DNA from: Maricaulis sp.
Lineage (GTDB): Bacteria; Pseudomonadota; Alphaproteobacteria; Caulobacterales; Maricaulaceae
Direction: 5' to 3'
NCBI GenBank assembly: GCA_002692855.1
Contig: NZMJ01000058.1
Location: 133,672 to 197,671 of the forward strand
DNA: 64,000 nucleotides
Shown: one piece after another, positions 50,426 through 55,117 of the stretch
Layout: the number at the start of each line of letters is the position of its first letter
Numbering within the stretch: the stretch's first letter is position 1
Program-made: the position numbers and the translations under genes
Notes under the pieces: generated by a model
The model's input: only the letters and a program-made list of their open reading frames with translations
Databases searched by the model: none
Told to the model about the DNA's origin: nothing

Positions 50426-50592
50426 GAGCAAGAACCGCGCCGAGCGCGGTGGATCCCGTTTTTCGTGCCTCGCGAGCGAGACAATGACCTGACGGAATTA
50501 AGTTGCCAAGTGCTTACTCGCAGCAGGCGTATCTGATGCTGCGTCGAATGGAATATCTCACCAATCAGCAGGAATCAGGTATCAATACGGAC

Positions 50593-51282
50593 ATGATGGA
50601 CACGAATTCCGCCGAAAATTTGGCCCCCGTAAGTCTGGAACCGGAACACCTTGCGGCGCTTCTGTGCGCGCGCTTGTGCCACGATCTTGTCAGCCCGGTT
50701 GCGGCCTTGGGTGCTGCCTTGTCGGTGCTGGATGACGAGGATGCGGCCGACATGCGCGACGACGCTCTGGAGCTGGTGCGCGAAAGCGCCAAGCAGGCTC
50801 AGGCCAAGCTGGAATTCGCCCGTCTCGCCTTTGGTGCGGGGGGCTCGGCCCCGGGCATGATCGATTGTGTCGAGCTGAAGCGCCTGGCGACCGGCCTGTT
50901 CAACACGGTCAAGCCGGACCTGGTCTGGAAGGTCGCTTCGCCGTCCCTTGAGAAATCTGCGGCCCGCCTGCTGCTCAATCTGTGCATCCTGGGGATCGAA
51001 GCGGCGCCGCGCGGCGGCACCGTGACCGTCGAGGCCACGGAAAGCGGCGGCGGAGCCCGCATCCACGTTCTCGCCGAAGGCCTGAAAGCCAAGATCGATC
51101 CCAAGCATTCCGCGGCGCTCGAAGGGGCCAAGCCGGAAGACGGGTTCGATGGCCGTTCGATCCAGCCCTACTATGCCGGCCTGATCGCACGCAGCACCGG
51201 CGGACGTGTCACCGCCAGCAGCGCCGAAGACCGGGTCGAGTTTGTCGCCCTTGTCGCCGGCCCGGCGCAGGTCGCAGCCTAG
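50593..51282 (+). CDS. chpT: Histidine phosphotransferase ChpT
   Basis: About 229 residues. ChpT accepts phosphate from CckA and passes it to CtrA and CpdR in Caulobacter. The phosphorylated histidine is H30 in LCARLCHDLVSPVAALGAAL, the DHp-like helix pair follows, and the C-terminal part is a degenerate Bergerat-type fold (LLLNLCILGIEAAPRGGTVTVEA) lacking ATP-binding motifs, as expected. Start choice is uncertain: two ATGs stand together at 50593 and 50596, and earlier in-frame ATGs exist at 50536 and 50548. A GAATC (GANTC) site lies at 50572-50576. Transcribed with the response regulator downstream. Confidence 0.88.
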   Translation: MMDTNSAENLAPVSLEPEHLAALLCARLCHDLVSPVAALGAALSVLDDEDAADMRDDALELVRESAKQAQAKLEFARLAFGAGGSAPGMIDCVELKRLATGLFNTVKPDLVWKVASPSLEKSAARLLLNLCILGIEAAPRGGTVTVEATESGGGARIHVLAEGLKAKIDPKHSAALEGAKPEDGFDGRSIQPYYAGLIARSTGGRVTASSAEDRVEFVALVAGPAQVAA

Positions 51283-51365
51283 CTCTGCCAACCCCCCGTT
51301 AACCAAAGCAGTCTCACTCTGATCTCCGGGACGGACGCATCGACCGCGTCCGACGGAGACGTGTG

Positions 51366-51731
51366 ATGAAAAGTTGCCTTGTCGTTGATGACTCGCGGGT
51401 GATCCGCAAAGTCGCCCGCCGGATTCTCGAAGGGCTGGAATTCAGCTGCGACGAGGCGGGCGACGGTGCCGTGGCACTCGACAAGTGCCGCGCCTCCATG
51501 CCGGACGCGATCCTGCTCGACTGGAATATGCCGGTCATGAACGGCATCGACTTCATGACGGCGCTGCGCAAGGAGCCGGGCGGCGAGAGCCCGGTCGTCG
51601 TGTTCTGCACGACCGAAAACGACATGCAGAAGATCACCGAGGCGCTGAGGGCCGGGGCCGACGAATACATCATGAAGCCCTTCGACAGCGAAATCCTGCA
51701 ATCGAAACTCGAACAGGCCGGCCTGATCTAG
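51366..51731 (+). CDS. Single-domain CheY-like response regulator
   Basis: A 121-residue receiver domain with no output domain. The acidic pocket is D8 and D9, the phospho-acceptor is D52 (ILLDWNMPVMNG), the conserved Thr/Ser is at T82-T83 and the lysine is K104 (YIMKPFD). Its position between chpT and cheR suggests either motility control (as with Cle/CheY-type proteins that bind the flagellar motor) or a role as ChpT target; the sequence alone does not decide. GGAGACGTGTG precedes the ATG at 51366; a GTG one codon earlier is less likely. Confidence 0.93.
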   Translation: MKSCLVVDDSRVIRKVARRILEGLEFSCDEAGDGAVALDKCRASMPDAILLDWNMPVMNGIDFMTALRKEPGGESPVVVFCTTENDMQKITEALRAGADEYIMKPFDSEILQSKLEQAGLI

Positions 51732-51749
51732 GCCCGGGAGGGGATGCAT

Positions 51750-52580
51750 ATGGTTTCCGCCGAAGACGTCATGTCGATCGCCAGTGAGGCGGGCCGCATC
51801 GCCGGTCTCGCCATCCGTCCCGAACAGGGGGCGATGATCGAAAGCCGTCTGGCCGGTCTGGCCCGTGCCGAAGGCTATGACAGCGTCAATGCGCTGATCT
51901 CGGCACTGCAGACCCGGCGGGACATCAAGCTGACCGGCGCGGCGGTCGAGGCGCTCGCCGGTCGCGACACGTGGTTCTTCCGGCTGCGCGAGCAGTATGA
52001 GCTGATCCTGAGCGAGCTCTTGCCCGTCCTGGCGCGCGCTCGCGGTCGCACCCGCCCGATCCGCATCTGGTCGGCGGGGTGTTCGACCGGACAGGAAGCC
52101 TATTCGATGGCCATGAACCTGGCCGAGGAAACCGGACTGATCGGGGATCTCCAGGTCGAGATCATCGGCACCGACATTTCGCGGCGCGCGGTCGAGCGCG
52201 CCCGTGCCGGCGCGTTCTCGCAGTTCGACGTGCAGCGCGGCCTGTCGATCCATCGCCTGGTGAAGCACTTCGAGCAGTCGGGCAAGGACTGGCGGTTGAA
52301 GACGCCGATACGGTCCGCTGTCCGGTTCGAGGCTGACAATTTGCTGAACCCGTCCGACACGATCGGGCAGTTCGACATCATTTTCTGCCGCCATGTCCTG
52401 TCAACACTGACGCCGGACGCGCGAAAGCGCGTCATCGGCAATCTGGCGGCGCGCTGCGCCCCTGACGGATATCTGCTGCTGGGCGAGGGGGAAGCGGCTT
52501 ATGCCGCCGGTCCCTTTCGCGCCGTGCGCGGGCAAAAGGGCATTCTCGCCCGCGAAACAGTGACCGAGATGGCGGCCTAG
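51750..52580 (+). CDS. cheR: CheR-type protein-glutamate methyltransferase
   Basis: A 276-residue enzyme that methylates chemoreceptor glutamates with SAM. The helical CheR_N domain (about 1-75) precedes the catalytic core with WSAGCSTGQEAYSMAMNLAEE (SAM-binding) and DIIFCRHVLSTLTPDARKRVIGNLA. No cheA, cheB, cheW or receptor gene is nearby, so this is an orphan paralogue. GGGAGG eight bases upstream favours the ATG at 51750 over the one at 51744. A strong terminator follows. Confidence 0.9.
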   Translation: MVSAEDVMSIASEAGRIAGLAIRPEQGAMIESRLAGLARAEGYDSVNALISALQTRRDIKLTGAAVEALAGRDTWFFRLREQYELILSELLPVLARARGRTRPIRIWSAGCSTGQEAYSMAMNLAEETGLIGDLQVEIIGTDISRRAVERARAGAFSQFDVQRGLSIHRLVKHFEQSGKDWRLKTPIRSAVRFEADNLLNPSDTIGQFDIIFCRHVLSTLTPDARKRVIGNLAARCAPDGYLLLGEGEAAYAAGPFRAVRGQKGILARETVTEMAA

Positions 52581-52602
52581 ACCTGCGGTTCGGATACCAA
52601 AG

Positions 52603-52636
52603 GAAAAAAGCCCGGGAGCTGATCCCGGGCTTTTTC
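52603..52636. terminator. Bidirectional terminator between cheR and ctrA
   Basis: AAAAAAGCCCGGGA ... CCCGGGCTTTTTC is a G/C-rich stem flanked by an A-run and a T-run, so it can end transcription from both the rightward cheR and the leftward ctrA genes. Confidence 0.9.
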
Positions 52637-52659
52637 AATTCTGGCGAGGGGCAGGGACG

Positions 52660-53355
<696 letters not shown>

Positions 53356-53560
53356 GGATCAAGCCTCCGCCCCGCTTGCAGCCCCCGCGAATCAATGGTT
53401 TGCGCGGTTGGCTCCATGGTTAACCTTGTTCGCACGCTAGGTGGAAACCCTTAATGAAAGTTAACCGGGTGTGATGAGACTCAGGGATCAATAAGGAACG
53501 ATTCTTCGCAAACGCTAAGGGTTTGTTTTGGATTCACTTTTGAGTCCGGTGAGTCTTGGG
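53356..53560 (-). promoter_or_regulatory. ctrA upstream region with GANTC and TTAA sites
   Basis: Five GANTC sites (53478, 53500, 53531, 53542 and 53551, first base) fall within 78 bp, while one per about 256 bases is expected by chance. TTAA occurs at 53420, 53451 and 53461; the last two form TTAA-N6-TTAACC, one base shorter than the canonical CtrA site TTAA-N7-TTAA. The region is noticeably richer in A+T than the rest of the window. It fits a CcrM-methylation- and CtrA-controlled promoter as known in Caulobacter, by inference. Confidence 0.6.
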
Positions 53561-53724
53561 TGCAACAGCTGCAATTTTCTTCTCAAAAGCGTTTTTTTGT
53601 AGGCAGCGAGCGCCTTGTTGGTCGCCGCATTGCCGATTTGCCGCCCCCGCGATGTGACCGGGCCTGACAAATCACCGCCGCGTTTACGGGACAGCAACCG
53701 CGTTCGCTTACCTTTCGCCTTCAT
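53515..53724 (-). CDS. Small basic open frame upstream of ctrA, doubtful
   Basis: A 69-residue frame (MKAKGKRTRLLSRKRGG..., many Lys and Arg). Codon third positions are G or C in about 70 percent of the first 40 codons but only about half of the last 28, below the neighbouring genes. There is no good ribosome site, and three GANTC sites fall in the 3' end. It could be a real small nucleic-acid-binding protein or chance coding in a 421-bp regulatory stretch between ctrA and fliI, the longest gap in the window. I recognise no family. Confidence 0.35.
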   Translation of the reverse strand: MKAKGKRTRLLSRKRGGDLSGPVTSRGRQIGNAATNKALAAYKKTLLRRKLQLLHPRLTGLKSESKTNP

Positions 53725-53776
53725 CTGTCATGTCTCGTGACGTGGATGGGCAGCGCAGGATGCGCGAAAGGCTGTG

Positions 53777-55117
53777 ATGCAAGGCTTGATCGACCAGGTA
53801 AGGGAGATGGATCCGCGCGTGCTCTCCGGGCGCGTGACGGCCGTCAACGGCCTGATGATTGCCGCGCAGGGCCCCAGGTCCGGCTTTGTGCTGGGCGCGC
53901 GGGCCTGGCTTGATACCTCCAGTGGCCGGACACCGTGCGAAGTCGTCGGCTTTCGCGGCGAGACCGCTGTGCTGATGCCGTTTGCGCCGATGGACGGTGT
54001 CGGTCCGGGCGCTGATCTTCGCCTCGAGCCTCAATTGGCCACCGCCCGCCCCAGCCATGCCTGGCTGGGCCGTGTCATCGACAGCTTTGCCCGGCCGCTC
54101 GACGGGCTGGGGGCGCTGCCCGAGGGCGCGACCGCCTATCCGATCAAGGGGCAGCCGCCCTGCGCGCACCAGCGGGCACGCCTCGGCGAGCGCCTCGACC
54201 TCGGTGTGCGCGCCCTGAACAGCTTCGTGCCCATGCGCCGCGGTCAGCGCCTCGGCATCTTCGCCGGTTCCGGCGTCGGCAAGTCGGTATTGATGTCCAT
54301 GCTCGCGCGCGGTTCGGACGCGGACGTGATCGTGATCGGCCTGGTCGGTGAACGGGGCCGGGAAGCGCGCGAATTCGTCGAGGATGTCCTGGGACCGGAA
54401 GGCCGCAAGCGCGCCGTCGTCATCACCGAGACGTCCGACGCGCCGGCCCTGGCACGGCGCCAGGCCGCCCACCTCACCATGACGGTGTCTGAGTATTTCC
54501 GTGACCAGGGCAAGGACGTGCTGTGTCTGATGGACTCGGTCACCCGTGTCGCACTGGCCCAGCGGGAGATCGGTCTGGCGGCGGGCGAACCGCCGACCAC
54601 GCGCGGTTACACACCGTCCGTCTTCTCCGAACTGCCCCGCCTTCTGGAACGCGCCGGACCCGGTCCCGAGCGCACCGACGGCGGCAAGCAGGGATCCATC
54701 ACCGGCCTGTTCACGGTCCTGGTGGACGGCGACGATCACAACGAGCCCGTTGCTGACGCGGTTCGCGGTATTCTCGACGGTCACGTGGTGATGAGCCGCG
54801 CCATCGCCGAGCGGGGACGTTTCCCCGCCATCGATGTGCTGCGCTCGATCAGCCGGACCGCACCGGAAGTTTATGGCGACGGCGAAGCGGACATCGTCCG
54901 CACCGCCCGCGCCGCGTTGTCGGACTATGCCGACATGGAAGAATTGATCCGTCTGGGCGCCTATGCCCGCGGGTCGAACCCGGCGACAGACCGGGCAATT
55001 GCCCTCAACAAACCGTTGGAGGCATTTCTCGCTCAGGGAAAAGACGAAGCGGCGTCAATTGGCGACACCTTCGCAACCCTGGACGGGATTTTGGGTGGTG
55101 ATGGAGGTGTATCATGA
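53777..55117 (+). CDS. fliI: Flagellar export ATPase FliI
   Basis: A 446-residue ATPase related to the F1 beta subunit that energises flagellar type III export. Walker A is AGSGVGKS at 163-170, Walker B is VLCLMDS near residue 250, and the FliI-specific [11 protein letters not shown] and [22 protein letters not shown] segments are present. The ATG at 53777 has AAAGG six bases upstream; a GTG one codon earlier is less likely. It overlaps fliJ by 4 bp. Divergent from ctrA. Confidence 0.95.

Follow-up and report, generated by a model that had tools for sequence, protein, structure and literature searches.

A group of five GANTC sites next to an N6 CtrA box upstream of ctrA in a Maricaulis genome

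Caulobacter ctrA promoters and the Maricaulis locus

The firing of ctrA is the textbook example of gene timing by the passage of the replication fork. In Caulobacter crescentus, GcrA acts with RNA polymerase at methylated or hemimethylated sites and CtrA then swaps the starts (available passages of PMC4287350, PMC3667746 and PMC8116508). The P1 promoter has a single GANTC site in the available text of PMC3667746, and its published layout, with GANTC at -29 and TTAA at -14 (PMC4287350, in part), agrees with GATTCGCAAATCAGATTAACC, by which Caulobacter P1 can be recognised in Caulobacteraceae loci. When this GANTC was abolished, promoter activity (PMC3667746) and phenotype (PMC3973325) were unchanged, as far as the accessible sections of these papers go. 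There is thus a contrast: ctrA is timed by the fork, yet its methylation site was dispensable in C. crescentus in the tests excerpted here. The P2 reporter was among those least affected by low CtrA (excerpt of PMC3751295). The ctrA promoter of Hyphomonas neptunium is bound by CtrA and also has a GcrA site (available part of PMC7200025). Up to six GANTC in the 300 bp upstream of ctrA have been counted in Caulobacterales (PMC8116508), so that the multiplicity of these sites is already known; the portion of that paper available gives numbers only, without their arrangement and without the alternative of a GANTC inside P2 that we describe below. The portions of the literature that our search covered hold no description of the arrangement of such a cluster, of its exclusion of a P2-internal site, or of a conserved leader TGATTCG.

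The stretch that we analysed, called the window, comprises 64,000 nucleotides of Maricaulis sp. and contains ctrA and a divergent fliI, which have a 418-bp intergenic region in common (Table 1). A ctrA phosphotransferase gene is a near neighbour: chpT matches NF046025 at 251.7 bits (cut-off 225) within window 50503-52580, where a CheY-like receiver frame and a frame resembling CheR by eye also adjoin ctrA. By hand reckoning, ctrA is 23-28% of the chromosome away from dnaA, used as the origin mark, in three genomes (G054, G158 and G148), which places it mid-arm, and ccrM is 24-29% away in the same three.

Table 1. Features of the ctrA upstream region and the flanking genes, in window positions
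Feature	Position	Strand	Remark
ctrA CDS, 231 aa	52660..53355	-	NF045991 CtrA equivalog, 429.9 bits, cut-off 350
GANTC in presumed ctrA leader, TGATTCG on ctrA strand, YGAKTCK	53389..53393	-	starts 38 bases before ATG
TTAA of CtrA-like half site, GTTAACCAT on ctrA strand	53420..53423	-	from alignments; 41 bases downstream of box start
CCTAGCG, candidate -10 of P2-like promoter	53435..53441	-	inferred from position; alignments
GGGTTTCC, one base from GGGATTCC	53443..53450	-	place of P2-internal GANTC in 22/59 f1 genomes
CtrA box TTAACTTTCATTAA, TTAA-N6-TTAA; TTAATGAAAGTTAA on + strand	53451..53464	-	counterpart of C. crescentus ctrA-P2 site; starts at -109
Cluster GANTC 1, TGAGTCT, YGAKTCK	53478..53482	-	starts 18 bases before CtrA box; GANTC at same offset in G215
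Cluster GANTC 2, AGAATCG, YGAKTCK on other strand	53500..53504	-	40 before CtrA box; GAATCGTTC at same offset in G215
Cluster GANTC 3, TGAATCC	53531..53535	-	71 before CtrA box; GANTC at same offset in G215
Cluster GANTC 4, GGACTCA	53542..53546	-	82 before CtrA box
Cluster GANTC 5, AGACTCA, YGAKTCK on other strand	53551..53555	-	91 before CtrA box
fliI, divergent from ctrA	53774..55117	+	TIGR03498, 589.1 bits, cut-off 587.45

The region shares with C. crescentus P1 a GANTC that precedes a TTAA half site upstream of ctrA, in a genome with CcrM and GcrA. It differs in that there are five such sites instead of one, and in that the TTAA, which in C. crescentus is separate and upstream of the box, is here part of the full box. 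The distance from GANTC to TTAA, 15 in Caulobacter, is 18 in the window and its relative G215 and 14 in the relatives G148 and G009; P1 geometry, with its spacing of about 15, is therefore found inexactly, which counts against the mechanism proposed below. The region is also like the GANTC-dependent, CcrM-activated promoters of C. crescentus mipZ and ftsZ. The two juxtaposed GANTC of mipZ (available text of PMC3667746) can be compared with GACTCGATTC in genera related to ours; ftsZ differs, its activity being suggested to peak at full methylation (PMC3708114, in part).

Both regulators are encoded in the genome and matched over nearly their whole length. CcrM matches the RAMA domain PF18755 at 69 bits (cut-off 35.2) and, over residues 6-353, NF050803 at 606.4 bits, short of the cut-off of 830; GcrA matches PF07750 at 183.8 bits (cut-off 26.9) and NF050816 at 220.1 bits, below that model's cut-off of 280. 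Each was found in 70 of 71 genomes (40 of the window's family, f1, 29 of f5 and 2 of f4), and each miss is an f5 draft of more than 300 contigs.

Upstream regions were compared in 138 genomes of f1 to f5. All 200 genomes of an evenly drawn order-wide sample match CtrA at E 0.001, a threshold loose enough to admit other response regulators as well. Regions were obtained from 40/40 f1 genomes of this first draw, and a second draw of 20 added the 19 with a ctrA match at 1e-90 (f1, n=59). For f2 the best 30 of 39 were used, G195 being left out for its weak best match; for f5, 30 were taken and L052, whose contig ends 94 bases upstream of ctrA, was dropped (n=29); f3 and f4 (n=10 each) were hand-picked from the listed matches and are not random. 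A further set holds 79 named alphaproteobacterial loci, one of 80 having been dropped for less than 300 bases upstream. The best CtrA matches of G142, G189 and G195 are weak (1e-38 to 1e-42) and G206 has none at 1e-90; in these four, ctrA is missing, split or at a contig end. The ctrA start codon is apparently GTG in L061 (G114) and TTG in L066 (G025), both of f5.

The CtrA box and the leader site

The original prediction had noted the TTAA element and given its N6 spacing correctly, but its reading of the element as one base off the canonical spacing and hence weak does not hold, since the C. crescentus ctrA-P2 site is TTAA-N6-TTAA as well (PMC3751295, available section) and exact N6 occurs within 200 bp of ctrA in 60/138 genomes (32/59 f1, 16/30 f2, 10/10 f3, 1/10 f4 and 1/29 f5), against 0/138 for exact TTAA-N7-TTAA. 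Among the 79 named loci, N6 is found in 20 and N7 in 0. The spacing written for ctrA-P2 in the part of PMC4287350 available is N7, contrary to the sequence in PMC3751295 and to the loci examined here; in Caulobacter loci the corresponding site is TTAACC(A/T)GTCTTAA. Because the box of ctrA is N6, ctrA itself would escape any CtrA target search that requires N7. The exact pattern leaves uncounted a variant second half in many f1 genomes (GATTT in g3, g8, g11 and g12).

The likeness to P2 extends to the distance from the ATG, -109 in the window and -103 to -105 in four named Caulobacter loci. The further TTAA that lies 1 bp downstream of the C. crescentus box, according to the excerpt available, is absent here; the next bases are GGGTTTCC, and the next TTAA is that of the half site (Table 1). 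A half-site TTAA is found 41-43 bases from the box start in 57/59 f1 genomes, in a script search confined to 41-44. No sigma-70-like promoter was found by consensus in the ctrA upstream region, which likewise counts against the mechanism proposed below.

The sixth GANTC, at 53389, falls within the interval of the original prediction and was missing from its list; among the methylation sites upstream of ctrA it is the most conserved in f1. A YGAKTCK site at most 55 bases from the ATG is present in 52/59 f1 genomes (any GANTC, 55/59) and in 30/30 f2 genomes; f3 (n=10) has 1 such leader site, f4 (n=10) 7 and f5 (n=29) 1. The extended motif that GcrA is believed to use for gene activation is TGATTCG, or more broadly YGAKTCK, and no such preference was found in B. 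subvibrioides (both from the available part of PMC7987155). Owing to its distance, the leader site is unlikely to be an ordinary element of the ctrA promoter.

RNA structure was considered as the main cause of this conservation and is not supported, while it may play a role in a subgroup. In g1, g4-g7 and g9, a possible hairpin of at least 5 pairs has GATT in its loop in 21/25 genomes, and 12/25 reach P 0.05 or lower when compared with the shuffled flank; in other f1 genera a stem occurs in 1/13 site-bearing genomes, none at P 0.05. In f1 the leader shows no lower folding energy than shuffles do (mean z -0.25; control stretches -0.04 and -0.26), and all Rfam matches in 52600-54000 are below cut-off and outside the leader. 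The stems of the possible hairpin (window 53360-53410, L002-L016) vary, for example CCGGGCG/CGCCCGG and CCGAACG/CGTTCGG.

The GANTC group and its persistence in relatives

The five GANTC sites named in the original prediction are all present at the positions it gave and span 78 bp (53478-53555). Read on the ctrA strand, these five and the leader site begin at -200, -191, -180, -149, -127 and -38 relative to the ATG. The prediction's expectation of about 0.3 sites was fair, since the intergenic density gives about 0.25 per 78 bp. The genome avoids GANTC, with 90 in the 64 kb against 338 in dinucleotide shuffles; by rough gene calls, its density is 3.0-3.5/kb between genes and 1.6-2.0/kb in genes. 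When the local 82-bp stretch was shuffled, the mean was 0.58 GANTC and five were reached in 1/20,000 shuffles; for the whole 418 bp between ctrA and fliI, 3/5,000 shuffles reached six.

The scan for similar clusters covered 780,713 bases, window included, which is about 1/5 of the 4,072,573 bases of the assembly; 690,758 of those scanned belong to the high-GC contigs C99 and C8. In this sample the ctrA cluster is the only place with five GANTC in at most 80 bp, and three further places have four. By hand arithmetic with the density of C99 and C8, about 0.04 chance clusters of five would be expected in this sample and about 0.2 per genome. The density alone is therefore modest evidence, and the case is carried by the place of the group and its conservation. 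The same genome also has eight GANTC in 173 bp between convergent frame ends (L206:4233-4405; G000:C99:64233-64405), often built of TTGAATCAA-like words, and one flanking frame has a start that looks GltX-like by eye; no similar DNA was found in 45 other genomes of the family. As no promoter is expected in such a convergent gap, dense GANTC alone is no proof of promoter function. The small contigs C1-C4, C6, C7 and C9 have 32-42% GC against 64% in C99 and C8 and are probably foreign to the genome, for which 5.89% contamination is listed.

The original prediction had staked itself on the recurrence of the cluster in close relatives, and it recurs in all four sampled genomes of the genus (g1): the window, G148, G009 and G215 have 5, 5, 5 and 6 GANTC in 78 bp. 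At least five in 78 bp are found in two more f1 genomes outside g1, that is, in 6/59 of the family. Over the stretch from -230 to -106, 25 genomes of six genera (g1, g4, g5, g6, g7 and g9, our own included) hold 90 GANTC, against a maximum of 28 in 300 rounds of shuffling, or on average 3.6 against 0.67 per genome. In the remaining 15 first-draw genomes of f1 there are 8 (shuffle maximum 13). In the other families, f3 with 29 and f4 with 24 are clearly above their shuffle maximum of 13 each, f2 has 16 (maximum 34) and f5 has 22 (maximum 21). The excess, found in six f1 genera, f3 and f4 and not in f2, is thus neither limited to the genus nor order-wide. Counted over the 300 bp upstream of ctrA, GANTC numbers range from 0 to 7 in the 138 genomes.

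The number stays high in the genus, with positions that partly differ. The offsets of the sites from the CtrA box are -91, -82, -71, -40 and -18 in the window, -84, -77, -71, -40, -29 and -18 in G215, and -99, -66, -44, -32, -27 and -14 in G148 and G009, so that 3/5 of the window's positions are kept in G215 and 0/5 in G148/G009. A core of GACTCGATTC, eight bases, GAGTC, nine bases and TTAAC is found in g4, g5, g6 and G148/G009; the window is without this GACTCGATTC and GAGTC pair. In g7, a GANTC at -26 from the box is kept in 12/12 genomes. A helical phasing of the group was considered and is treated as chance: the window's spacings (9, 11, 31 and 22) are near multiples of a helix turn, and those of G148/G009 (33, 22, 12, 5 and 13) are not.

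The shared intergenic region, present in the window and in 20/59 f1 genomes, raises the question of whether the cluster could serve fliI instead of ctrA. When the DNA upstream of ctrA in the 59 f1 genomes (1500 bp in 57 of them) was searched by tblastn with the window's FliI, fliI was absent from G148, G009 and G215, which nevertheless carry 5-6 sites in 78 bp, and from 15/29 f1 genomes with at least two GANTC before the box. Since three members of the genus keep the sites without fliI, the cluster goes with ctrA, and a role for fliI is highly improbable. We give as little credence to the idea that the sites are shielded from CcrM, making a hypomethylated patch that serves some other purpose. 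The available text of PMC7987155 reports 27 unmethylated GANTC in C. crescentus, some of them bound by MucR1/2, but such sites are rare (35/7800 strand-wise in B. subvibrioides, same text), and no pointer to protection was found in our analysis.

The number of sites may have no graded meaning. One methylated GANTC near the start may suffice for GcrA, the extra sites coming and going under weak selection; we regard such redundancy as a substantial possibility, if short of an even chance. It agrees with the turnover of several positions within the genus and between genera, with the presence of CcrM and GcrA also in family members that have one or two sites, and with the dispensable P1 site of C. 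crescentus (partial texts cited above). On the other hand, 5-6 sites in 4/4 genomes of the genus and the average of 3.6 against 0.67 over 25 genomes are more than free drift would be expected to leave.

The original prediction favoured a graded timer, whose output would track the number of hemimethylated sites; several GcrA molecules would bind jointly in such a timer. This we consider doubtful. A high number is kept even though the positions differ from those of G148/G009, which fits redundancy as well; in vitro, GcrA covers a larger stretch of fully methylated than of hemimethylated ctrA-P1 (PMC3667746, available section). The extended motif YGAKTCK, on either strand, is matched by 3/5 cluster sites, which can be set beside a genome background of 300/1415 GANTC; it is also matched by the site at 53389. 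That it is only mildly commoner in f1 upstream sites (34/115), and rare among those of f2 (5/61), counts against the mechanism proposed below. However, five sites within 78 bp turn hemimethylated almost together when the fork passes, so cooperative binding or staggered remethylation would be the only sources of a grade, and the 3/5 positions kept in G215 need no reading by dosage. Natural variants, a genus with 5-6 sites and related genera with one P2 site, would let dosage, redundancy and position be separated.

A probable multi-site form of the ctrA switch and a second arrangement in the family

The cluster is a distinctive and evolutionarily kept version of the known ctrA switch, located beside a self-regulation site. 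Of the original prediction, the link of the sites to ctrA and CcrM stands, given that CcrM and GcrA are encoded and the cluster is present in all four genomes sampled from the genus; its view of the N6 element as off-spaced and weak does not. We think it probable that the region controls ctrA transcription in response to CcrM and GcrA, in a multi-site form of the Caulobacter P1/P2 kind. That C. crescentus does without its P1 GANTC speaks against this reading. The sites and their conservation, the box and the genes for CcrM and GcrA are observed, and a plausible order of events can be drawn from them by analogy with C. crescentus. CcrM would methylate the GANTC sites, which replication would turn hemimethylated. 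The methylated or hemimethylated upstream group may then recruit GcrA together with sigma-70 RNA polymerase, and the recruited polymerase would begin to transcribe ctrA early and weakly from a start close to the CtrA box. Newly made CtrA would bind the N6 box and shut this early start, as the box would sit at its -10. From the same place, with the box at -35 and CCTAGCG as -10, bound CtrA would drive the strong P2-like start. The leader TGATTCG may serve as a further mark for CcrM and GcrA. Methylation state, GcrA binding, start sites and the sequence of steps are thus all put forward as likely features of the Maricaulis region.

A second arrangement is found in the family. In 22/59 f1 genomes a GANTC lies inside P2, about 24 bases before the half site. 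At least two GANTC in the 110 bases before the box are present in 0/22 of these and in 29/37 of the genomes without the internal site, among which the box is weakly placed in 3/37 (L261, L267 and L275, the last P2-internal by eye). The exclusion has a Fisher p of 8e-10, a value that ignores relatedness. A ctrA DNA tree of 43 rows (40 f1 and three f2; 13/40 inner branches with less than 80% support) places the P2-internal form in one large clade and in g2, beside the f2 rows, with losses inside g3. As the independent changes are few, the mutual exclusion of the P2-internal GANTC and the upstream group in the family is suggestive and not proven. The place of the internal site reads GGGATTC in g2 genomes and GGGTTTCC in the window and in most of g7; in the window this sequence may be a relic of a P2-internal GANTC.

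From these patterns one could speculate that the family (Maricaulaceae-like) can couple ctrA to replication by either of two interchangeable designs: a single GANTC within the CtrA-driven P2 at fixed spacing, or a homotypic group of 2-6 GANTC upstream of the box, of which the number would be selected more than the place. In the second form, the early promoter would also use the box as its -10, and the group would be a cooperative methylation sensor. We hold this general scheme only tentatively and as rather unlikely in its entirety.

Two genomes, G024 (L038) and G168 (L046), are without the P2-internal site and without the leader YGAKTCK. Loss of CcrM or GcrA was considered as the cause and rejected, both genomes having CcrM and GcrA. 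Pairs of GANTC also occur elsewhere: 22 pairs with a 9-base spacing are found in the 79 named loci, two of them at other places in Phenylobacterium and Asticcacaulis, and many Rhizobiales loci (e.g. L136, L145, L161 and L167) have GANTC-N4-GANTC, often GAGTC-N4-GAGTCG, about 220-270 bases before ctrA.
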